DNA of 62,295 nucleotides, taken from IMG/VR virus record IMGVR_UViG_3300043435_000756, positions 1 through 62,295 of that record; one strand, 5' to 3'. Below the pieces are notes generated by a model. It had not been told where the DNA came from. It searched no databases and saw only the letters and a program-made list of their open reading frames with translations. Positions 3,592 to 31,513 of this stretch are shown here, piece by piece. The position numbers were made by a program, and so were the translations under genes. This DNA is from a virus. Every line of letters starts with the position of its first letter. Position 1 is the first letter of the stretch.

Positions 3592-3607
3592 TGTGATAAA
3601 TCTCACA
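3592..3607. promoter_or_regulatory. CRP/GlxR-like palindrome
   Basis: A perfect TGTGA-N6-TCACA match, about 40 bp upstream of the L4 promoter's TGTCGG. Confidence 0.6.
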
Positions 3608-3633
3608 AAATTCCAGGGGCTCTATAACGTATC

Positions 3634-3698
3634 CGTAACGACACGCCCGACCCCGTGCCTTTGCGGGCCAGCTTGACATTGTCAAGCCGACACGCCGT
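3634..3698. repeat. 65-bp operon-end repeat, copy 2
   Basis: Perfect copy of 2853-2917, with CGACACGCC at 3639-3647 and 3688-3696 and the GCTTGACATTGTCAAGC palindrome between them. It lies 4 bases beyond the stop of the last L5 gene (3703). Identity between the copies implies recent duplication or strong constraint. Confidence 0.85.
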
Positions 3699-8019: not shown

Positions 8020-9954
8020 ATGTCTAAGACTATTGCAAACCCATACGAAAATTTCATTGCGTTATCAAGATATGCAAGATGGATATCAGAAGATAATCGT
8101 CGTGAGACTTGGGGTGAAACAGTAGATAGATATTTTAACTTCATGCTTGGCCACTTAGAAAAGAATTATAATTATATTCCAAATGAGAAGCTTGTTGCGG
8201 AATTAAAAGAGTTTGTCTTTGAACGAAATGTAATGCCATCAATGCGTTCTGTTATGACTTCAGGAGTAGCATTGGAAAGAGACAATGTAGCAGGATATAA
8301 CTGTGCTTTCCTACCAGTTGATTCACCACGTTCATTTGATGAAACAATGTATATCCTTATGTGCGGTACAGGTGTAGGATTCTCTGTTGAGTATAAGTAT
8401 ATTAATAAACTTCCTGCCGTCCCAGAGTCATTGGAAAAGTCAACTACAGTAATTACAGTGGAGGACTCAAAGCAAGGTTGGGCTAAGGCGTACCGTGAGT
8501 TGCTAGCGCTACTTTGGTCTGGACAGATTCCAGCAATTGATGTTTCTAAGGTAAGACCAGCAGGAGCAAGACTTAAGACAATGGGCGGAAGATCATCGGG
8601 TCCACAACCACTTATTAATCTATTTGATTTTACAATTGCAAAGTTCAAGAGTGCCACAGGAAGAAACCTTAAGCCAATTGAATGTCACGATATTATGTGC
8701 AAGATCGGTGAAGTAGTTGTTGTAGGCGGAGTTCGTCGATCAGCAATGATTTCACTTTCTAACATTAACGATATTGAGATGGCACAGGCTAAATCAGGTA
8801 ACTGGTGGGAAGCCAATACACAACGTGCTTTGTCTAATAACTCTGTTGCGTACTCACGCAAGCCAGACATGGAGCAATTTATTGCAGAATGGAAATCTCT
8901 ATATGATTCAAAGTCAGGAGAACGAGGTATATACAATGTGGCCGCAGCTCAAGCCCAAGCAGCCAAGTATGGAAGAAGAGATCCAGATATACACTATGGA
9001 ACTAACCCGTGCTCAGAGATTATCTTACGTCCTTACCAGTTTTGTAACCTTTCAGAAGTCGTACTACGTGAAAATGATACAAAGAAAGATATTGAACGTA
9101 AGGTTGAGCTTGCAACTATTCTTGGAACGTGGCAGTCAACGCTTACAGACTTTAAATATCTTCGCAAGATCTGGAAAGACAATACAGAAGAAGAACGCCT
9201 GCTAGGTGTTTCTTTAACTGGACAATTTGGACACAAGTTTATGTCAGGCAAAGAAGATCTTGTTTCACTAGAATCTTTCTTGATGACTCTTAGAGAATCA
9301 GCAAGAGCAAAGAATAAAGATGAAGCTGAAAAGATTGGGATTCCTGAGTCTGCCGCTATTACATGCGTAAAGCCATCAGGAACAGTATCTCAATTGGTTG
9401 GGGTATCTTCAGGAATGCATGCTTGGCATTCTCCATATTATATTCGTACAGTTCGTGGAGCAAAAGGAGATCCAATCTCTACATTTTTAAAGGAAGTCGG
9501 AATTCCAGTAGAAGATGATGTTATGAAGCCAAACGATACATACGTATTTTCATTCCCAATTAAAGCACCAGAAGGTGCAATTGTTAGAAACGATCTTACT
9601 GCTATTGAGCACTTAAACATTTGGTTAGTTTACCAACGTGCATGGTGTGAGCACAAGCCTTCAATTACAGTTTCTGTAAAAGAAGATGAATGGATGGAAG
9701 TCGGTGCTTGGGTGTATAAGCATTTCGATGAGGTATCTGGAATTTCATTCCTACCGCATTCAGATCACTCATACAAGCAGGCTCCGTACCAAGAAGTATC
9801 AAAGGAAGAATACGATGCTCTTGTTTTAAAGATGCCAAAGGATATTCGCTGGGAAGACTTGTCTTTCTACGAGACAGAAGATGGCACATCTACTAATGCT
9901 ACGCTTGCATGTAGTTCAGACGGAAATTGTGAGCTAGTAGACATTTCTTCTTAA
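8020..9954 (+). CDS. nrdJ: class II (adenosylcobalamin-dependent) ribonucleotide reductase, 644 aa
   Basis: Catalyses reduction of ribonucleotides to deoxyribonucleotides for phage DNA synthesis, with coenzyme B12 generating the thiyl radical. Visible hallmarks: Cys95 in GYNCAFLP, the radical-site segment NPCSEI with Cys331 and Glu333, Cys342 in QFCNLSE, the loop CVKPSGTVSQL, and a C-terminal redox pair Cys631/Cys637 (ACSSDGNC). No small subunit follows, and no N-terminal ATP-cone is seen, fitting the monomeric RTPR-like subgroup. The gene has its own promoter and is followed by the holin. The length is a little below the bacterial enzyme, typical for phages. The host must make or take up cobalamin. 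Confidence 0.93.
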   Translation: MSKTIANPYENFIALSRYARWISEDNRRETWGETVDRYFNFMLGHLEKNYNYIPNEKLVAELKEFVFERNVMPSMRSVMTSGVALERDNVAGYNCAFLPVDSPRSFDETMYILMCGTGVGFSVEYKYINKLPAVPESLEKSTTVITVEDSKQGWAKAYRELLALLWSGQIPAIDVSKVRPAGARLKTMGGRSSGPQPLINLFDFTIAKFKSATGRNLKPIECHDIMCKIGEVVVVGGVRRSAMISLSNINDIEMAQAKSGNWWEANTQRALSNNSVAYSRKPDMEQFIAEWKSLYDSKSGERGIYNVAAAQAQAAKYGRRDPDIHYGTNPCSEIILRPYQFCNLSEVVLRENDTKKDIERKVELATILGTWQSTLTDFKYLRKIWKDNTEEERLLGVSLTGQFGHKFMSGKEDLVSLESFLMTLRESARAKNKDEAEKIGIPESAAITCVKPSGTVSQLVGVSSGMHAWHSPYYIRTVRGAKGDPISTFLKEVGIPVEDDVMKPNDTYVFSFPIKAPEGAIVRNDLTAIEHLNIWLVYQRAWCEHKPSITVSVKEDEWMEVGAWVYKHFDEVSGISFLPHSDHSYKQAPYQEVSKEEYDALVLKMPKDIRWEDLSFYETEDGTSTNATLACSSDGNCELVDISS

Positions 9955-14154: not shown

Positions 14155-14393
14155 CAATAGAAACTACAGGGAATTGGGAATGGGAAGTAGAGGATAGTGA
14201 AACATCTCCTTTACTAAATCTTACTATTAAAAACATTTCTGAAAATAAAACAGTAAAACTACTTAATATTAATTGGGCTACTGGAAGAGAAGATTTTCTT
14301 GAGCATTCTTACAACATGGCAATTGAAACTCTTAGCGGAGGAGACAATTGTTGTCTTGAGGGAAAGGTTGTGATGATAGAAAATGGCATCTAG
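14151..14393 (+). CDS. hypothetical protein in fibre region (80 aa)
   Basis: Starts [20 protein letters not shown]. Beta-rich, acidic, with a CC pair (GGDNCCLEG). Overlaps the collagen fibre (ATGA) and the next fibre (11 bases), so it is translated in step with them; perhaps a fibre chaperone. No family recognised. Confidence 0.6.
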
Positions 14394-15696
14394 AATAAGA
14401 ATAAGAAGAGGCACAACTACCCAATGGAATTCATCTACTAAAATTTTAGAATCTGGTGAACTAGGACTAGATTTAACATTAAATAAATTAAAAGTTGGCA
14501 ATGGCACAAGCTTGTGGACATCTCTTCCATATATTAATATTTTGCCAAGCGAACTTTCAGAGCTTGCTCAAGATGCAGTTGAATCTGCAATCACAGCTGG
14601 AACAGGAATAACAAAAAGTTATAACGATACTGCAAATACAATTACCCTTGCAGTTGATAGCACTATTGCTAATAAGACTTATGTCGATACCGCCGTTTCT
14701 GGTTTAGGTAGCACGTCAGCAGCAAGCTATGTACCTCTTAGTATTGTTGGAAATGCAGACGGAGTTGCCTCACTTGATGAAACGGGTAAAATCCCAGATT
14801 CTGAAATACCAGCAGAAATTACAAGAAATACTTTAGCTCAAACTCTAACAAACAAAACAATTGGTCTTGGAACTGGGATTACATCAATTGCTCAATACGA
14901 TAACATATCTGGATTTTTTGGGCAAAGCGATATAGCAATTTATCAGGCAGGTCTTGATCGGGGCGGTAGAATAAGCATTAGCGCAGAAGGAGTTATTTCT
15001 GTAGTAAATTCTGGAATAGGATATGTATCAGGAATAGTAACAACTAGTGGCGGAACGAGACTTATTATATCAGTAGGAGGAAATACTCTTAGTGGAACCC
15101 TGGCTGAATTTAATGCAGCATTAACAGATGGAGATTTTGCTACACAGTCTTATGTTACTACAGCAGTATCAAATCTTTTAGATTCTGCCCCAGAAACATT
15201 AAACACTTTAAATGAACTTGCGGCAGCAATAAATGATGATGCTTCATACGCAGCAACTATTACTACCGCTCTAGGTAATAAAGCCCCAATTGCTTCACCA
15301 ACCTTTACTGGAACGGTAGGCGGAATCACAAAAGACATGGTTGGTCTTTCAAATGTAGACAATACCTCTGATAATACAAAAGCCTTGATTACTTATATTC
15401 CAGTATCATCTGCAACACGGACAATTAGTTCTGCAACAGATAAAAACACCCTTCTTGAATGCAGCGTTGCTTGCACAATTACAATTCCAAATGATACCCA
15501 AGATGCAGGATGGCCAATTGGATCAATGGTTGAAGTCAGACAAATCGGAACTGGGCAAGTCACTATAACAAAAGATGCAGCGGTAACAATGCAGGGAACA
15601 GATTCTCAATTTAAATCAAGAGTTCAGTGGAGCACGATTATGTTAGAAAAAAGAGCAGCAAACTCCTGGTTGGTTACAGGAGATACAACTGCATAA
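14383..15696 (+). CDS. tail fibre with Mtd-N-like domain (437 aa)
   Basis: Residues 1-50 form an N-terminal module nearly identical to that of the gene at 12868 ([20 protein letters not shown]), a duplicated anchoring domain. A shaft follows containing AITAGTGITKSYNDTANTITLAVD, a unit also repeated in the gene at 18716, then ASLDETGKIPDSEIP and LNTLNELAAAINDD motifs common in phage fibres, and a C-terminal beta domain (CTITIPNDTQDAGWPIGSM) resembling tail-fibre capping domains. Ends TAATG onto the cysteine-rich gene. Confidence 0.8.
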   Translation: MASRIRIRRGTTTQWNSSTKILESGELGLDLTLNKLKVGNGTSLWTSLPYINILPSELSELAQDAVESAITAGTGITKSYNDTANTITLAVDSTIANKTYVDTAVSGLGSTSAASYVPLSIVGNADGVASLDETGKIPDSEIPAEITRNTLAQTLTNKTIGLGTGITSIAQYDNISGFFGQSDIAIYQAGLDRGGRISISAEGVISVVNSGIGYVSGIVTTSGGTRLIISVGGNTLSGTLAEFNAALTDGDFATQSYVTTAVSNLLDSAPETLNTLNELAAAINDDASYAATITTALGNKAPIASPTFTGTVGGITKDMVGLSNVDNTSDNTKALITYIPVSSATRTISSATDKNTLLECSVACTITIPNDTQDAGWPIGSMVEVRQIGTGQVTITKDAAVTMQGTDSQFKSRVQWSTIMLEKRAANSWLVTGDTTA

Positions 15697-17042
15697 TGCC
15701 AAGAGGACCCAGAAGAAGACATAGCGCATCCGTCTCAAGGCTAAAAGCATTGCTTTCTCTTGTAGAAGATTTTGGTAGACTGACGCTAGTAAATGCAGGA
15801 TTGACTTCCGCAAAATGGAAGCATGTAGTTGCTGGTTGGACAATTGCTGCAGGAAAAGGAACATCTGTTGCATTAGGTTCATTAATTTCAACAACATTTT
15901 CATCTACAAATGCAAGTATTAAAGCAAAAAATCCAGCATCGGGTGTAGGCCCAGCTTTTTGGGTAACAGACTCTGGGAACTATTGGGCGGTAGTAAAAAA
16001 TACAACAAATATTTGTCAAACTTGTTCAGCATGCGGACAGTACAATAGCTGTTCTTATTGTAGCTCATACGCCTATGGGTCTAATGCATCTTGTGGTTGT
16101 GCTTCATATACTCAGACTACATGCTGCAACCAATACAATTATGGACCAGACGGAAGTTGCGGATGTGCTTCATATACTACAACAAGTTGCTGCAATGGAT
16201 ATGGAACATGTACCGTATGCTCCTCATATGGAACACAAACATGCTGTGTTGCTTATTCAAATTATGAGTGCTGCATAGCAAGTGTTCCATTTTACTATAC
16301 ATGCTGCACTGGCTATACGACAAGTAGTTGTTGTACAGAGTACTATACATACTATGGTAATTTTTGCTGTGCCGCATATGTTTATAATTCATACAAAGGC
16401 GGAGTTGTTTGTGGCCAGCCAACATTTTGTGCAGTAACATTATGCTTTAGTTATGGAACATGCACAACATGCTCTTCATACAGCGAATGCTCGGGATCAT
16501 ATTGTGCAGTGTACGGTAGCTGCCAACAATGTGTTGCATATGGAAGTTGTACAGTTTGTACAGGATATTCACAACAGTCATGCTGTACATCTTACACAAG
16601 CTGTACAGTTTGTGCTGCAAATAATTCATGTCAATATTGTACAGGATATACTTCATGCACAGTTTGTGGAGCATATAATCAGTGCCAATACTGCGACGGA
16701 TATTCCTATGGACCAAATGCATCTTGCGGATGTGCTTCATCCTACACTTATAATTGCAACTGTGCAGACCATCATAAAATAGATTTAATTAAAAAAGAAG
16801 GCGGTTCAGAAACAGTTATATCCTCAACAAGCAATTCAACTACAGCAATTGCTGGCATTAAGGTGACCACAGATGGCAATAGTGTTACAGCTCAAGCTTA
16901 TTCAGATGTAAATTATTCTTCCCAAGTTGGATCAGACCTAACTACAACAAATACTGGACAAAAGTCAAAAGATCATGGTATAATTTCAAGAGCTTCAAAC
17001 GCAAGCCAAGGATACACAATAGATGAATTTAGGGTAAATTAA
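15696..17042 (+). CDS. fibre-region protein with massive cysteine-rich insertion (448 aa)
   Basis: Start at 15696 (MPRGPRRRHSASVSRLKALL) chosen for TAATG coupling; a longer frame would run through the previous gene. Residues about 28-105 and 357-448 look like two halves of one concanavalin-like beta sandwich (FWVTDSGNYWAVVKN before, KIDLIKKEGGSETV and IAGIKVTTDGNSVTAQAY after). Between them lies a segment of about 250 residues with roughly 50 cysteines, plus Tyr, Ser, Thr and Gly. Short units recur: SCTVC, SCQYC, SCGCASY, TSCC. Six runs of CC pairs and many C-x2-C pairs give an almost periodic pattern. Disulphide cross-linking outside the cell or multi-metal binding are both possible; neither is shown. 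Confidence 0.7.
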   Translation: MPRGPRRRHSASVSRLKALLSLVEDFGRLTLVNAGLTSAKWKHVVAGWTIAAGKGTSVALGSLISTTFSSTNASIKAKNPASGVGPAFWVTDSGNYWAVVKNTTNICQTCSACGQYNSCSYCSSYAYGSNASCGCASYTQTTCCNQYNYGPDGSCGCASYTTTSCCNGYGTCTVCSSYGTQTCCVAYSNYECCIASVPFYYTCCTGYTTSSCCTEYYTYYGNFCCAAYVYNSYKGGVVCGQPTFCAVTLCFSYGTCTTCSSYSECSGSYCAVYGSCQQCVAYGSCTVCTGYSQQSCCTSYTSCTVCAANNSCQYCTGYTSCTVCGAYNQCQYCDGYSYGPNASCGCASSYTYNCNCADHHKIDLIKKEGGSETVISSTSNSTTAIAGIKVTTDGNSVTAQAYSDVNYSSQVGSDLTTTNTGQKSKDHGIISRASNASQGYTIDEFRVN

Positions 17043-17441
17043 ATGAATACTAAACTTAGTTTTACTCAAAGCCTTAAAGACTATTTAAGAGATATTCGTG
17101 TATATATAAAAACACATGCCAATAAGTATTTAAGGAACAATTTAAAAATAGGATACAAGGTTCCAAAAGATCATGAGTTTATTCCAGATCAGTCCAAGCT
17201 CGGAATGCACCTTGCCATATTAGACCCAACATCCATGATAGTGGAAGACATTATGACAACAAACCCAAAGTTTGGTAATTTGCTTAAAATGGGACCAATT
17301 TTTATTGAAATTAATCATGAGCAAAAAAATAAATTAGACTTAAATTCAAAAAATTGGATATACAACGAAGACGAAAAAGATTTTTTTGAAATCAAAGAAA
17401 TAGATCCAATACCACTAGAAGAATGGAACAAAAATGGCTGA
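17043..17441 (+). CDS. hypothetical protein (132 aa)
   Basis: Starts MNTKLSFTQSLKDYLRDIRV, a basic helix, followed by a compact mixed domain (GYKVPKDHEFIPDQSKLG) ending acidic. It begins directly after the cysteine-rich gene's stop and overlaps the next start by 8 bases. No family recognised. Possibly a soluble partner of the fibre genes. Confidence 0.65.
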   Translation: MNTKLSFTQSLKDYLRDIRVYIKTHANKYLRNNLKIGYKVPKDHEFIPDQSKLGMHLAILDPTSMIVEDIMTTNPKFGNLLKMGPIFIEINHEQKNKLDLNSKNWIYNEDEKDFFEIKEIDPIPLEEWNKNG

Positions 17442-17676
17442 TCCGTTTGAAAGACCAGCTAGGCCCTGGGATCTGTATAATAAAAAAATAGGCCGTGTAG
17501 ATACTTTAACGGCAGATCAAAGACTTGAGATTTGTAAAGGTTGTACCTTTTTTATAAAAACTACTAGCCAATGCAAAAAATGTGGTTGCCTTATGACGGC
17601 AAAAACAAAGCTACCAAATGCAGAATGCCCTATTGGAAAATGGGGACAAACAAAAATAGAGGAGGAAAAAATATGA
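17434..17676 (+). CDS. zinc-ribbon protein resembling DUF6171 (80 aa)
   Basis: CKGCTFFIKTTSQCKKCGC and AECPIGKW give six cysteines in the order C-x2-C, C-x2-C-x-C, C, the spacing of small phage zinc ribbons often annotated DUF6171. Role unknown. Its location inside a fibre operon next to a cysteine-rich fibre is notable. Overlaps both neighbours. Confidence 0.7.
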   Translation: MADPFERPARPWDLYNKKIGRVDTLTADQRLEICKGCTFFIKTTSQCKKCGCLMTAKTKLPNAECPIGKWGQTKIEEEKI

Positions 17677-21658: not shown

Positions 21659-24600
21659 ATGGCAAGAAGAGCAATTAACGACCAGGGAATTATATTTTCA
21701 CCTGCAACATCCACAATTACAATTCCAAGAGTAGTCTTAAGACAAAATCTTCTTTTGATCACCAACGTCACCCAGAATAAAATCATTTATAATTTTTCAG
21801 ACCCAGCGGTAGGTCTAGTAAGCCACTCTTTAACCAGTAGCCAAAATGACCCATCAACAGTATTAGTTCTTGAATACAACACATCAGCAATGCAGTCAAC
21901 AGATAAACTTCAGATTATGGTTGATGAGCCATTTGAGTCATTTATGCCAGCCCCAGATCAGCTGGATGCAGTTGGAAAGTTCAAGATATCAGATCCAGAA
22001 TCTTTAATTGATACAGACTTTGAATACGGTGTTCAGGGCTCCAAGTGGGAATCACTTTCTCTTCAAAACAATTACCCAACATTCTTCTCAAGAAATACAG
22101 GAGGAAACTCCCTAGATGTAGTTAGCATTATTTCATCAGGAGGTTCTCCTAGATCTACAATTGTTGTAAACACAGCAACCCCACACGGATTAACTAATGG
22201 AGACGTAGTAAGCGTTAACGAGTCTTTAAGTCCATTAACTGATGGAACATTCCTGGTTACAGTGCTAAGCTCAACTATTTTTTCATATATTGCTAAAGGT
22301 TTTGTGGCAAATGGCACAAGCGTACAAGATGGAGTTTTGACAAATCTTTATGGTGGAGGAATTTTTGATAATGCTCACATTCCTGGAGGAAACACAGGTA
22401 ACCTAAATTCATGGTCAGCTACATCAGACGGTGCAGCCCTTTCTAGAATAAACGTAGTAACTACAAATCCACACGGATTATATCCAGGAACACCTATTTT
22501 GGTTTCAGCTCCATCAGGAAGTGCTATTAACGGAAGCTTTTTGATTGACAGAGTTACAACCCCAAATTCTTTCTCTTTTATGACACAAGGATTAATTCCA
22601 GTAGGAACAATTGTTACCACAGGAATTGGTTTGTATTGTAAGCCTGAAGGCTATGTAGAGCATAGACCTTTTGACGGTGGAGTGATTCTTACAACAGGAA
22701 ACAACGTGTGCGGAACACAAACACTTAGACAAACACGTAGATACTTTAGATATCAGTCAGGTAAGTCAATTACTTTTTCAACAGGAACAAAGTTTACGCC
22801 TTCATTTGATATATCATATATTGCATCATCAAGCACAGCAATCGGATCAAATACAATTACAATTCGTGTTTTGCAAGATCACAATTTACAAGCGGGAGCA
22901 ACAGTTAAAGTTGAAGGAATTGAAACGGTAGGAGCATACAATCCATTTAATGGTTTATTTACTATCAGCTCAGTACCAGATTCAAATACAATTTTATTAC
23001 AAAAAACATTTACATCTGCAATTACAGCAATTGATCAATTGCCAGGTGGAGTTAACTCTTTCGTAACAGCGTATCAATGGAAAGGCTCAGCAACAAGAGC
23101 AGGACTATATGATGATCAAAATGGATTCTATTTCGAGTATGATGGACGAACATTATATGCAGTAAGAAGATTCTCAAATAAAGAACTGTTCGGTAAAGTT
23201 TCAGTAACACAGTTTTCAAATGTAGTAACAGGTATAGACACTAGATTTAGAAAGCAGCTTCTTGTAGGAGACCTAATTGTAATTAGAGGACAATCCTATA
23301 GAGTTATCCAGATTAGCTCTGATACTGTACTTAACATTGCCCCAGCATATCGTGGACCAAGCGTTACAGCATCTCCTTACCTTAAGACACAGATTCAAAA
23401 GGTTCCACAGAATGAATGGAATATTGATACTATGGATGGAACTGGACCAACAGGTTATAATCTTGACATAGCAAAGATGCAGATGACATTCATTGACTAC
23501 TCATGGTATGGCGCAGGATCAATTAGATTTGGCATGAGAGCAAATGACGGAGCGGTTGTTTGGTGCCATAAGATGGTAATGAATAATAATAATACTGCTT
23601 CATATATGCGTTCAGGTAACTTGCCAGCAAGATATGAAACAATTAATGAGCCTTTAAACTCTGCAAAATTAATTGCAGGTGGATCAGGAATTAGCGGATC
23701 TACATTATTCCCTCAAGACACAGTAATTTATGTTAATGACGTAAGTTTCTGGCCTTCAAATGGATATTTAAGAATTGCAGACGGAGCTAACTTTGAAATT
23801 TGTGAGTATACATCAATTGGTGCATATAACCCAACAATTCAAGCAACAGCCGTTAATATTGTAAGAAGAGTTGCACAGCCATTAGTTTATGGAGGAGTTT
23901 CAATGAATCTTTTTGGAACAGCGTCTCAAGTAAACTTTGTTCCAGACTCAACAATTCCAGGCGGATCTGGAGTAGCGCAAGTTTCAGTACAAACAATTTC
24001 TCAAAACTGTGCACCAGTTATGTCACACTGGGGATCATCAGTTATTATGGACGGAAAATTTAATGATGATAAATCATTTATCTTTACTGCTGGTATGCAG
24101 AAATATCTTCAGGTCGGTGGATCTGGAACAATTTCAGCAACAATAACAAACCGTCAGTCACACAATAATATTGCAACAATGACAACATCTGGTCCCCACA
24201 CACTTGCAGCGGGAACAAATGTTACTATAAGCGGTGTTCAAGATATTTCAACTGTTATATATAAGCAGCTAACAAATAATATTGCAACGCTAACAACTTC
24301 TACTCCTCATTTCTACTCGGTTGGACAATCAGTAACCATAACTGGAGTAGATACAGTATTCAATGGAACATACACTGTTTCCCTTGTTCCAGATTCAACA
24401 AGAATTTCATTTAGCAAGGTTTCAAATAATATTGGATTCCAATTTGTTTCAGGAACCCCAAGAATTACAGCCGCAAGTAGATATAACGGCACATTCTTAA
24501 TTGATACAGTTACCCCAACATCATTTTCTTATACTTTAGCGGGGGCAGACGAATCAATTGCAGCAGTTAACCCTAACGGAACTGCAGTTCAGACTTTTGG

Positions 24601-25156
24601 AAGTACACCAACCCCACGTCCTCTTGTTTCAATTAGAGTGGCACCTTCAGCAGACAATGGTCTAGGAAGAAACTTCGGGCAACGTGAACTTGCTAATAGA
24701 ATGCAGATGAAGCTAGACTCTGTTGGAGTTCTTTCACAAGGACAGTTCTTGATTGAAGGAATTTTGAACCCAGCAACAATGAACGGTATTTCTATTCCTT
24801 CGGAATGGGAAGCGCTTAGAGTTGGTTCAGGTTCTCTTGCACAGGTAATTTACCATGACGGAACAGGTGTTAGAGGTACTGGAGCTCCAGTTACATCTCC
24901 TACAAATACCGTTACTGGTGGAGATCGTATCTTCGCTTTCTATACAGAAAACGCAGGTGGTACTAACTTCTCAGTTTCTACTTTTGATGCTAAGAAAGTT
25001 AGAGATCTTTCAAACTCAATTCTAAATGGAAATGGGTCTCAGACAAATCCATCTTTCCCTAACGGACCAGACATCCTAACAATTACAGCAACAAACCTCG
25101 GTTCAGGTGCTGCAAACATTCTTGCTAGAATTTCATGGACTGAAGCACAGGCTTAG
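21659..25156 (+). CDS. very large beta-rich baseplate/fibre protein (1165 aa)
   Basis: N-terminal domain (GIIFSPATSTITIPRVVLRQ, about 1-110) followed by several copies of a beta-sandwich unit with the recurring phrase TPHGLTNGDVVSVNE / NPHGLYPGTPILVSA / QDHNLQAGATVKVEG and the partner NGTFLV/NGSFLIDRVT, seen at about residues 175-230, 265-320, 390-450, 830-880 and 890-980. A central block (SGKSITFSTGTKFTPS, QYRYFRYQSG) may be a receptor-binding core. Proteins with these repeats are usually large structural proteins of marine phages. No enzyme motif seen. It may form a hub or long fibre. Confidence 0.7.
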   Translation: MARRAINDQGIIFSPATSTITIPRVVLRQNLLLITNVTQNKIIYNFSDPAVGLVSHSLTSSQNDPSTVLVLEYNTSAMQSTDKLQIMVDEPFESFMPAPDQLDAVGKFKISDPESLIDTDFEYGVQGSKWESLSLQNNYPTFFSRNTGGNSLDVVSIISSGGSPRSTIVVNTATPHGLTNGDVVSVNESLSPLTDGTFLVTVLSSTIFSYIAKGFVANGTSVQDGVLTNLYGGGIFDNAHIPGGNTGNLNSWSATSDGAALSRINVVTTNPHGLYPGTPILVSAPSGSAINGSFLIDRVTTPNSFSFMTQGLIPVGTIVTTGIGLYCKPEGYVEHRPFDGGVILTTGNNVCGTQTLRQTRRYFRYQSGKSITFSTGTKFTPSFDISYIASSSTAIGSNTITIRVLQDHNLQAGATVKVEGIETVGAYNPFNGLFTISSVPDSNTILLQKTFTSAITAIDQLPGGVNSFVTAYQWKGSATRAGLYDDQNGFYFEYDGRTLYAVRRFSNKELFGKVSVTQFSNVVTGIDTRFRKQLLVGDLIVIRGQSYRVIQISSDTVLNIAPAYRGPSVTASPYLKTQIQKVPQNEWNIDTMDGTGPTGYNLDIAKMQMTFIDYSWYGAGSIRFGMRANDGAVVWCHKMVMNNNNTASYMRSGNLPARYETINEPLNSAKLIAGGSGISGSTLFPQDTVIYVNDVSFWPSNGYLRIADGANFEICEYTSIGAYNPTIQATAVNIVRRVAQPLVYGGVSMNLFGTASQVNFVPDSTIPGGSGVAQVSVQTISQNCAPVMSHWGSSVIMDGKFNDDKSFIFTAGMQKYLQVGGSGTISATITNRQSHNNIATMTTSGPHTLAAGTNVTISGVQDISTVIYKQLTNNIATLTTSTPHFYSVGQSVTITGVDTVFNGTYTVSLVPDSTRISFSKVSNNIGFQFVSGTPRITAASRYNGTFLIDTVTPTSFSYTLAGADESIAAVNPNGTAVQTFGSTPTPRPLVSIRVAPSADNGLGRNFGQRELANRMQMKLDSVGVLSQGQFLIEGILNPATMNGISIPSEWEALRVGSGSLAQVIYHDGTGVRGTGAPVTSPTNTVTGGDRIFAFYTENAGGTNFSVSTFDAKKVRDLSNSILNGNGSQTNPSFPNGPDILTITATNLGSGAANILARISWTEAQA

Positions 25157-28360: not shown

Positions 28361-29923
28361 ATGGCAGTAAATACAACAACAAACCAAGTCTATATACCAG
28401 GTTTTGAAACAAACATTCAAAACGTGGTTACTCCACTTGCTAATACAACAGCAACTGCCATTACAACGTTACAGAGCGGAATCCCAAATCAATTTGCAAG
28501 CATACTTGGAAAATTTCCAAGTGCTTCTACTTCAAGAGATAATACAGAGCCTTCTCCCTACCCACTTTTTGCTATCTGGACAAACCAGGATAACTCTAGA
28601 AAAGCGGGATACTCTGTAATTAACTCTGAAATGCAAGTTGTTGCAACAAGTAGATTAAATAACCGTCAAGGTGGATGGACAGATGTAGATCTTTCCGACC
28701 TCAGCAACTGGTACGAAGATTATAGAGGACAAACTTATACTAACGGTAACCCAACTTCTAACAACTGGAGCACACATTCAGGCGGCGGAACAAACATGAA
28801 TGGCCATGAAGGCAACATGCTATACAGCTTCCAGGTTTTCGGCAACTACGGAGGCACACAGTTTAATAGACAAGGCGACTGGGGACAATTTACATCAAGA
28901 AGCGGAACAATTATTGGTGCAAGAGGAGTTCGACCAAGAGCCAGCCACTACTCAACAGATTCAACTTTTCAGATAAGACTGAGAGGTCAAGTTTACGGAT
29001 ATCTTGATCAAGTTAACCTAAACTCAGCAACATACGCAAATTGGGCTGGACGATCAAATCGTGGAATGTCATCATACAACGACAGAACAAAAACATTAGC
29101 AGTAGCTGAATCAAATACAGCAAATCAAATTCGCTTACACATTTGGAGAAACACAAACCCTCTACATAATTTAAATGCTAATAACTATGAGGCTGGAGAC
29201 CTTCATAACTTCTTATCAGAAGCAAAGACGGCGGGGCCTTCAGGAACAACAGCTAGATATTCATTCTATGATTTCACATGGACATCATCTGGTTCAACAC
29301 AAAATGAGCCTTCTTATGTAATGAGACTTATCATGGGAGACAATGGAACAATTGGTTTTTCAAGAAATTCTCAGCAAGGAAACGCTCATCAATATGGATG
29401 GTATATTCCAACAAACCCAGGAACCCCTGGTAACTCTGGAACTGGAGCATTTACAGATAGCGGATCAAACCTAGCAAACACTACTTCATATGGCATTGAT
29501 CAAAGAGACGGTGCTGGAATTAGAACAAATATTTCATGGGATAATAACTGGATCATTTCCTATGCCCCTTATTACTACTACCACTCTGGAATTAATTGTC
29601 ACGCTATTTACACACAAGATCCAACAAAGTTCTACTACTGGAGAAATACAGACCAAACTAATGGTTTGTCCCCAGTACCATTTGGAGAAAGTTCTTTCAT
29701 CATGTGTTACTCAGTACAAAACGGAGACACACCTGGGCCTCATTTATACTATGCAAACCCACAAGCTGCTTTTGAAAATGGATACAGAAATGATGGAACC
29801 ACTGTTGCAAACGCTGGAGATCTTCAACCATTCAACGTAAACATGCACTATATGTTTGATTCAATGTCTAATACAACACAGTACCCACACATTTCAGTAA
29901 TGCCACACTGGACAACGGTCTAA
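28361..29923 (+). CDS. adhesin B, second paralogue (520 aa)
   Basis: Family landmarks: PSPYPLFAIWTNQDN, WYEDYRGQTYTNGNPTS, VRPRASHYSTDSTFQ, SYNDRTKTLAVAESN, HNFLSEAKTAGPSG, SYGIDQRDGAGIRTNISWD. It shares blocks of identity with adhesin C (WYEDHRGQTYT, NFLSEAKTAGPS) that exceed those with adhesin A. Starts after GGGAG. Receptor-binding role inferred. Confidence 0.7.
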   Translation: MAVNTTTNQVYIPGFETNIQNVVTPLANTTATAITTLQSGIPNQFASILGKFPSASTSRDNTEPSPYPLFAIWTNQDNSRKAGYSVINSEMQVVATSRLNNRQGGWTDVDLSDLSNWYEDYRGQTYTNGNPTSNNWSTHSGGGTNMNGHEGNMLYSFQVFGNYGGTQFNRQGDWGQFTSRSGTIIGARGVRPRASHYSTDSTFQIRLRGQVYGYLDQVNLNSATYANWAGRSNRGMSSYNDRTKTLAVAESNTANQIRLHIWRNTNPLHNLNANNYEAGDLHNFLSEAKTAGPSGTTARYSFYDFTWTSSGSTQNEPSYVMRLIMGDNGTIGFSRNSQQGNAHQYGWYIPTNPGTPGNSGTGAFTDSGSNLANTTSYGIDQRDGAGIRTNISWDNNWIISYAPYYYYHSGINCHAIYTQDPTKFYYWRNTDQTNGLSPVPFGESSFIMCYSVQNGDTPGPHLYYANPQAAFENGYRNDGTTVANAGDLQPFNVNMHYMFDSMSNTTQYPHISVMPHWTTV

Positions 29924-29932
29924 GGAGAAAAA

Positions 29933-31513
29933 ATGAGCGAAAATACAACAGCAACAACAACATCACAGATAATTCACCCAGGACTTGAAGATTCAATCAG
30001 ATCTATTATTACACCTATAGTAGCTGCAAACAACACTGCGCTTACAGCAACTACATCAACAATTGCTGCAAGCATATCTACTCTTTCAGGTAAGATTGCA
30101 TCACCATTAATATCAAGAAACAATAACGAAGTTTCTCCTTATCCAACATTTGCTATATGGACAAACGATAATAACAATAAAGCTGGATTTAATATTATTA
30201 ACTCAGATTTCCAATCAATTGGTTCAAATTCTATGCCAGGATGGTTTGGAGGCTATCAGGATCCAGATCTTAATTCAATGCCTAACTGGTATGAAGATCA
30301 CCGTGGACAAACTTATACACAGGGAAATCAGTCATCTGGACAAAACACAACATACTCTGCAAACTCTACAGTTGCAGGATCTGCAGACGGACATAATTAT
30401 TACAGACCAAATCTTCACGGAGGATTTGCTGGAAACTGGATGAATCATTTTGGTCAACATGGACAGTTTACTACACGATGCGGAACAGTAATCGGAGTAA
30501 GAGGAGTTAGACAAAGAGTAAGCCACTGGTCAAATGATGCAGAATTTCAAGTAAGATCTAGAGGTATGGTAACAGGCTATTACGATAGAGTCTCTTTAAA
30601 TAACGCTGCTTACGCAACTTGGGCGGGACGCACAAACCGTGGAATGTCATCATACAACGATAGAACTAAGATGCTTGCTGTTGTAGAATCAACTACCACA
30701 GGAAATAACATTCGTTTACACGTATGGAGAAACACTAGCCTTAGCTTAAATGATTTTTCTCACAAGCCAGGAACGCTTCATAAGTTTTTATCAGAAGCTA
30801 AAACAGCAGGTCCTTCAACAGGAAACCAACTAAGTACTAATAAGAATTACGCATTCTATGACTTTACATGGACGTCACCTGGCTCAACAAGAAATGAGCC
30901 AGCCTACCACATGAAGATAATTCTGGGAGATAGTGGAGTAGTTGGATTCTCAAGATACAGCCACGATGGAAATGCTCAAAAATATGGATACTTCTTACCA
31001 ACATCGCAAGGCACTGCAGGTAACTCAGGAATCGGAACATTTACAGATACCAACATTGATCTAGGAAATACAACATCATACGGTATTGATCAATCTGAGC
31101 ACTTTGGACAAAGACACCAGATTACTTGGGATAATGAGTGGGTTGCAACATACTCACCTTACTACTACTATGAGTCTGGAATTAATTGTCACATTATTAA
31201 TACAATCGATCCAACTAAACTGTTCTACTTTAGAGTAACAAACTCAGGCTCAGGACACGGGCTTGTTCCATTCAAAGAAGATAAATTTATAACCATATAC
31301 TCCGAACAAAATGGAGACACACCTGGACCACATCTGTATGTAGTAGACCCAGGCTCTGCAGGAAAAAATTTAAGAAGAACTAATGGAACAACTCTATCGT
31401 TTGGCGGAGACCTTCAGCCACACAACGTAGTAAGTCACTATCAATTTGATACACATGGAAGCACTACCCAATATCCGCATATAGTAAGTATGCCACATTG
31501 GTCAAACCCGTAA
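29933..31513 (+). CDS. adhesin C, third paralogue (526 aa)
   Basis: Same architecture as adhesin B, with YPTFAIWTNDNNNKAGFNI, SYNDRTKMLAVVESTTTG, KFLSEAKTAGPS and GIDQSEHFGQRHQITWD. The N-terminal 50 residues are a helical segment (SIRSIITPIVAANNTALTAT) that should trimerise. It sits 10 bases after adhesin B with an AGGAGAAAAA ribosome site. The B/C pair is a recent duplication compared with A. Confidence 0.7.
   Translation: MSENTTATTTSQIIHPGLEDSIRSIITPIVAANNTALTATTSTIAASISTLSGKIASPLISRNNNEVSPYPTFAIWTNDNNNKAGFNIINSDFQSIGSNSMPGWFGGYQDPDLNSMPNWYEDHRGQTYTQGNQSSGQNTTYSANSTVAGSADGHNYYRPNLHGGFAGNWMNHFGQHGQFTTRCGTVIGVRGVRQRVSHWSNDAEFQVRSRGMVTGYYDRVSLNNAAYATWAGRTNRGMSSYNDRTKMLAVVESTTTGNNIRLHVWRNTSLSLNDFSHKPGTLHKFLSEAKTAGPSTGNQLSTNKNYAFYDFTWTSPGSTRNEPAYHMKIILGDSGVVGFSRYSHDGNAQKYGYFLPTSQGTAGNSGIGTFTDTNIDLGNTTSYGIDQSEHFGQRHQITWDNEWVATYSPYYYYESGINCHIINTIDPTKLFYFRVTNSGSGHGLVPFKEDKFITIYSEQNGDTPGPHLYVVDPGSAGKNLRRTNGTTLSFGGDLQPHNVVSHYQFDTHGSTTQYPHIVSMPHWSNP

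Follow-up and report, generated by a model that had tools for sequence, protein, structure and literature searches.

Domains with a concanavalin-like (ConA/CBM-like) beta-sandwich are found both in phage fibres and in bacterial enzymes. The closest described viral counterparts of the protein analysed here are the C-terminal domains of the mycobacteriophage proteins Douge gp20, a central fibre, and TM4 gp23, which share its fibre location and for which receptor binding has been shown or named; when fibre domains of Douge with this fold were expressed, they attached to M. smegmatis and did not attach to E. coli (PMC13033339). CBM66 and the GH43-associated ConA-like modules have the same fold and belong to bacterial enzymes. 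With respect to disulphides, Agrobacterium phage Milano sets a precedent for extensive bonding in phage structural proteins (PMC10491603), and with respect to variation, BPP-1 Mtd and other DGR adhesins place a hypervariable part on a constant scaffold. Outside the viruses, the bovine ultralong CDR-H3 is a stalk-and-knob rich in Tyr, Ser, Gly and Cys, with a bias towards even Cys numbers (84% of VH) (PMC7366855).

In the window, by which we mean the whole 62,295-base stretch of viral DNA analysed, we find a fibre-region gene whose scaffold is thus already known in kind. We found no description of its insertion, packed with Cys and always at one hairpin, of the even-Cys rule that its relatives follow without exception or of the linked zinc-ribbon gene in the literature searched (outside subscription papers and preprints), family libraries, cultured phages or prokaryote genomes. 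Whereas the bonds of phage Milano are mostly between subunits (neck, collar, capsid) and Cys makes up 2.4% of its structural proteins, here it makes up 20% of one domain. The likeness to the bovine loop is one of outline: a sandwich loop on what would be a two-stranded stalk, a Cys-rich knob and an even-Cys bias. There is no homology, and variation arises by somatic hypermutation in the one and between lineages in the other, so that the analogy may indicate how the phage loop works, not its ancestry.

The insertion and its scaffold

The Cys-rich gene lies in a tail-fibre cluster, with Mtd_N, collagen-like and tail-fibre PHROG genes as neighbours. The same virus record also encodes a portal protein, a maturation protease and a tape measure. 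Cyanophages have relatives of the fibre-type protein encoded at 21659-25156. The features of the locus are as follows.

14383..15696, + strand: preceding fibre protein with an Mtd N-terminal domain (Pfam Mtd_N 1.6e-11, tail PHROGs); its stop overlaps the adhesin start
15696..17042, + strand: Cys-rich fibre/adhesin gene (448 aa, 50 Cys), from its translation and relatives L001-L026, the divergence being mostly synonymous
15762..15992, + strand: N-terminal half of the ConA/CBM-like beta-sandwich (~residues 23-99, ending GVGPAFWVTDSGNYWAV); N-flank profile E ~3e-22, homologous to residues 5-90 of the high-confidence L168 model
15993..16775, + strand: insertion (~residues 100-360) at the tip of the longest beta-hairpin, placed by flank alignment; the empty site is the D97-G98 turn of the L168 model
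16014-16763, + strand: Cys block (residues 107-356) inside the insertion
16097..16173, + strand: repeat family D13, copy in the insertion's first arm (CASYTQTTCCNQYNYGPDGSCGCAS), 71% identical to 16664-16740
16664..16740, + strand: repeat family D13, corresponding copy in the insertion's second arm
16776..17030, + strand: C-terminal half of the same scaffold (~residues 361-445, KIDLIKK...YTIDEF); C-flank profile E ~4e-29
17043..17441, + strand: 132-aa protein between adhesin and ribbon, without a family match
17434..17676, + strand: companion gene for an 80-aa, six-Cys, zinc-ribbon-like protein with N-terminus RPARPWDLYNKKIGRV; phrog_13558

All 50 Cys of the adhesin fall within residues 107-356, mainly at spacings of 1, 2, 3, 6, 8 and 11 residues. 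The rest of the window has 48 Cys in the 14,157 residues of 30 proteins (0.34%), a background at which 250 residues would be expected to hold 0.85; the block is enriched about 60-fold (binomial P ~1e-71). The preliminary description of this DNA, made from the letters alone, had reported some 50 Cys in about 250 residues, and the reading frame, its coordinates and its composition bear this out. The limits it gave for the Cys block also hold, the insertion defined by profiles being slightly wider. The near-periodic Cys repeats that it noted in the window block, where the tandem-repeat signal is weak, are not a constant of the family, as the Cys repeats of the relatives are quite different. Its central proposal, that the block is inserted in a single domain whose two halves are the flanks, is upheld by a relative with an empty site that folds as one sandwich and by the finding that every insert-bearing relative is Cys-rich.

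Direct searches returned close relatives, about 13 in number, whose blocks contain 32-50 Cys. An alignment search added proteins that are alike in the flanks only (GVGPAFWVTD... and ...QGSTxDNF), the Cys-rich sequences between these being very different. Using two flank profiles, together with the loci of a ribbon-anchored and a scaffold-anchored scan, we assembled a family of 100 distinct phage proteins in 69 insert clusters, all on one scaffold and with one insertion site, between the strand that ends in NWWA and the strand YxLxLLSSVxGT. The inserts that contain Cys range from 66 to 492 aa and from 6 to 64 Cys, and are unrelated in sequence between lineages. The exception is the L168 group, in which the flanks are joined by a Cys-free linker of 14 residues. 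The relatives come from uncultured aquatic phages. The Cys-rich protein has no match in Pfam, PHROG, NCBIfam or PDB sequences. Among 50,697 cultured-phage records, no relative was found with the whole protein, the block, the flanks or the relatives as queries, the block searches being limited by the BLAST low-complexity filter; one of the cultured-phage searches gave matches at chance level only. Two scans of 84,980 prokaryote genomes, for a prophage or host link, returned no relative either, and the literature searched (outside subscription papers and preprints) yielded no description of such a phage protein.

The naturally empty site of L168 allows the scaffold to be modelled. AlphaFold2, given this domain and an alignment of 54 relatives that included the window protein, produced a model with a pLDDT of 93.6 and a pTM of 0.90, which shows one ConA/CBM-like sandwich covering the scaffold, to which the window flanks are joined through the profiles. 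The insertion point falls in the turn between strands 85-96 and 99-110, which form the longest beta-hairpin. Among solved structures, CBM66 (Z 17.4) comes closest to the model, ahead of the Douge gp20 C-terminal domain (Z 16.9), GH43-associated ConA-like modules (Z ~15) and the receptor-binding domain of TM4 gp23 (Z 14.5). The two phage domains match over nearly the whole scaffold, although at about 10% identity and through the empty scaffold alone; the bacterial modules are about 12% identical and lack a Cys-rich insert. Among viral models, Foldseek finds uncultured-phage proteins and minor tail proteins of actinophages. From the L168 fold, these Z scores and the binding data for Douge, we conclude that the flanks form one lectin-like sandwich of the kind used in host binding. 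The model of the window protein itself, with 10 close relatives, has a mean pLDDT of 32.6 and captures the C-terminal half and two strands on either side of the block (96-107 and 356-368, at low confidence), the insert having a pLDDT of about 20.

Some proteins carry Cys-rich parts in other arrangements. L168 / L172 (3827-5920), which have no loop insert, bear C-terminal Cys-rich modules on polyproline linkers with 44 Cys, again an even number; in these proteins the tail appears to have taken over the Cys-rich part from the loop. In addition, L109, L131, L137, L138, L128 and L132 encode ribbon-linked Cys-rich proteins (up to 51 Cys), upstream of the ribbon gene, that match the two flank profiles incompletely; Cys-rich parts of this kind may also sit on scaffolds other than the sandwich.

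Cysteine number and conservation

The number of Cys in the insert is even in all 97 Cys-bearing proteins. The same is true of 68/68 clusters at 70% identity and 50/50 at 55% identity, clusters that are not fully independent; at 45% identity the low-complexity sequences chain into one group and the clustering becomes uninformative. The other residues of these inserts have even counts in 30-42 of the 68 clusters, that is, about half. A prediction of evenness set down before three further scans held for 8/8 new inserts, bringing the total to 105 of 105 distinct loops. The flanks have almost no Cys, and multiples of four are not preferred (55 versus 45 of 100). Even counts could partly be inherited through duplication of two-Cys units; however, evenness also holds in L105, L190 and L193, whose inserts consist of one-Cys units. 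Since evenness is limited to Cys and shows no bias towards multiples of four, it argues for complete disulphide pairing rather than metal sites or free thiols. In loops without clear sequence similarity, such a rule is a strong genomic signature of complete pairing, and proteins of this kind are rare in this class of virus.

Cys numbers change by twos, sometimes at two distant places. In the window family, what distinguishes the form with 50 Cys from that with 40 is a pair of five-Cys segments, separated by about 125 residues, which suggests that the two arms are coupled, with at least one bond between them. The motif CxCxxC starts eight inserts and ends eight, compared with 0.3% of inner positions. 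The simplest account that the sequences offer would be complete intrachain pairing on a two-stranded stalk that is cross-linked close to its base.

The Cys are also conserved. Across close pairs, Cys is retained at 1192 positions and substituted at 27, against 6521 retained and 1496 changed for the other residues. Between the window and its nearest relative L001 (92% identical), all 50 Cys are kept despite silent changes in 14 of the 50 Cys codons, and dN/dS is 0.16 in the block as against 0.08 in the flanks. The Cys block is thus a selected protein sequence and not an accident of reading frame; its non-synonymous change is faster than that of the flanks. That it might be a meaningless low-complexity expansion of a repeat-prone gene, as its repeat-like sequence and variable length could suggest, is barely credible given this selection, Cys held while other residues change, an evenness confined to Cys and the weak tandem-repeat signal.

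The companion zinc-ribbon gene

The small six-Cys gene noticed nearby in the preliminary description proves to be a conserved companion. Over residues 23-70, including the six ribbon Cys, its product matches phrog_13558 (E 1.6e-15), a family whose function is unannotated; against DUF6171 it scores 24.7 bits, below the Pfam gathering cut-off of 27. Neither the PWDL-type N-terminus of the companion nor the link to a Cys-rich adhesin was found described for the six-Cys ribbon proteins of phrog_13558 or DUF6171. The ribbon gene lies downstream of the adhesin in 49/53 clusters and upstream in 0/31. When clusters with any member selected through the ribbon are removed, the figures are 23/27 and 0/30. 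Conversely, loci anchored on the ribbon have a Cys-rich ORF upstream in 43 of 48 cases and downstream in none of the 48. The 132-aa protein that separates the two genes in the window is found with the same spacing in close relatives and is absent from distant ones, where the ribbon gene often follows the adhesin directly.

Fibre chaperones are often encoded just 3' of the fibre gene, as with gp37 and gp38 of T4. Because of this arrangement, our guess is that the ribbon protein may be a folding or thiol-protecting factor for the adhesin, probably aiding its synthesis, for example by shielding or metallating thiols in the reducing cytoplasm until lysis. A widespread small protein is thereby nominated for a role in assembly or thiol protection. 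Alternatively, the gene may be a passenger that encodes a small protein common in fibre regions and functionally unconnected with the Cys-rich loop, a reading compatible with the role of the loop that we prefer below. We consider this quite plausible while leaning slightly against it: some cultured phages, such as Stenotrophomonas phage Yut2 and syn9, have a ribbon relative without a Cys-rich neighbour, but the linkage is specific in direction and position over diverse loci, and the ribbon also stands beside Cys-containing adhesins of another build.

The latter are found in two Synechococcus phages. In S-SRM01 (L056, 2820-3908), a Cys-rich patch lies in a glycine-rich 'gp37-gp38 adhesin tip', and in Sf-FP1 (L055, 4130-7852) in a virion protein of 1240 aa, each adjoining a ribbon gene. 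The two adhesins may represent the same principle on a second scaffold, and they offer a cultured system for experiments.

Roles of the loop and other features of the window

Among the three functions offered in the preliminary description, a disulphide-bonded adhesin tip is favoured by the even Cys numbers, the receptor-binding fold and the fibre cluster, while a redox or metal-loading surface has lost ground. We think it fairly probable that the loop, hypervariable and held by disulphides, is the tip with which a lectin-like receptor-binding domain contacts its receptor. The protein would be the receptor-binding subunit of a tail fibre, with the ConA/CBM66-like sandwich as its last domain and the turn of the longest hairpin replaced by a long loop rich in Tyr, Ser, Thr, Gly and Cys. 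In the mature particle all loop Cys would be paired as internal disulphides, and the loop would stand as a stable, sequence-tolerant knob or ladder on a two-stranded stalk, contacting the host surface. With the sandwich fixed and the loop varying in sequence, length and bond pattern, Cys being gained or lost in even numbers, lineages could swap binding surfaces. Counting against this explanation, disulphides would normally form after lysis because fibres assemble in the reducing cytoplasm. The explanation predicts particles sensitive to reducing agents and raises the question of how 50 Cys escape misfolding in the bacterial cytoplasm.

If the receptor-binding reading is right, disulphide rewiring in one loop is a possible route to fast evolution of a binding surface on a fixed scaffold, and the inserts would be a natural library of disulphide-rich scaffolds of up to about 490 residues. 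A bolder proposal, which we put forward as possible without calling it probable, is that uncultured aquatic phages have a previously undescribed two-gene recognition module: a constant sandwich, a hypervariable and fully paired knob at one hairpin tip, and a dedicated ribbon helper for the reducing cytoplasm, as a convergent counterpart of the bovine ultralong CDR-H3.

In the main rival reading, the loop is fully disulphide-bonded but serves to resist mechanical stress or proteases, or to act as a rigid spacer, with no part in recognition. Any disulphide structure would satisfy the even-Cys rule, the repeats make antifreeze-like or solenoid rods conceivable, and in phage Milano disulphide networks confer stability to sonication and heat (PMC10491603). 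We nevertheless find this unlikely, if worth taking seriously. Stability alone does not account for inserts at one site that are unrelated in sequence and length across lineages while the scaffold is kept, nor for the faster non-synonymous change of the insert, and the scaffold is one used in receptor binding. Far more improbable is a metal-loading or redox-active surface, whether metallothionein-like or with Fe-S or zinc clusters, to which the CxxC, CC and CxC motifs and the adjoining zinc-ribbon gene might point. Cys counts are never odd and do not favour fours, and the composition of the insert (Tyr 11%, His 0.4%, Lys 0.5%) is unlike that of metallothioneins; on parity and composition the protein falls outside both the metallothionein-like and the Cys4 metal-cluster classes.

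As for the source of the variation, the DGR adhesins offer a comparison, and genes with Mtd_N neighbour the adhesin in the window. Adenine-specific substitution operates there, whereas here we see insertion, deletion and Cys pairs. Diversification by a DGR was rejected: the 62-kb record, itself possibly incomplete, has no RVT_1 (reverse transcriptase) match.

Elsewhere, the window has no Rfam match and no tRNA. A GC-rich repeat with core CGTAACGACACGCCCGACCCCGTGCCTTTGCGGGCCA occurs in three copies of 77-100% identity (1558-1618, 2829-2889 and 3610-3670, with longer copies at 2825-2917 and 3606-3698) in the left part, where there are few long ORFs; it too is without an Rfam match. Beside the fibre cluster, the translation of a long ORF (8020-9954) resembles by eye the large subunit of ribonucleotide reductase. 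Next to each other at 28361-29923 and 29933-31513 are the genes of two paralogues of structural type (520 and 526 aa) that share DNA blocks about 71% identical (repeat families D7, D9, D15), an apparent tandem duplication.
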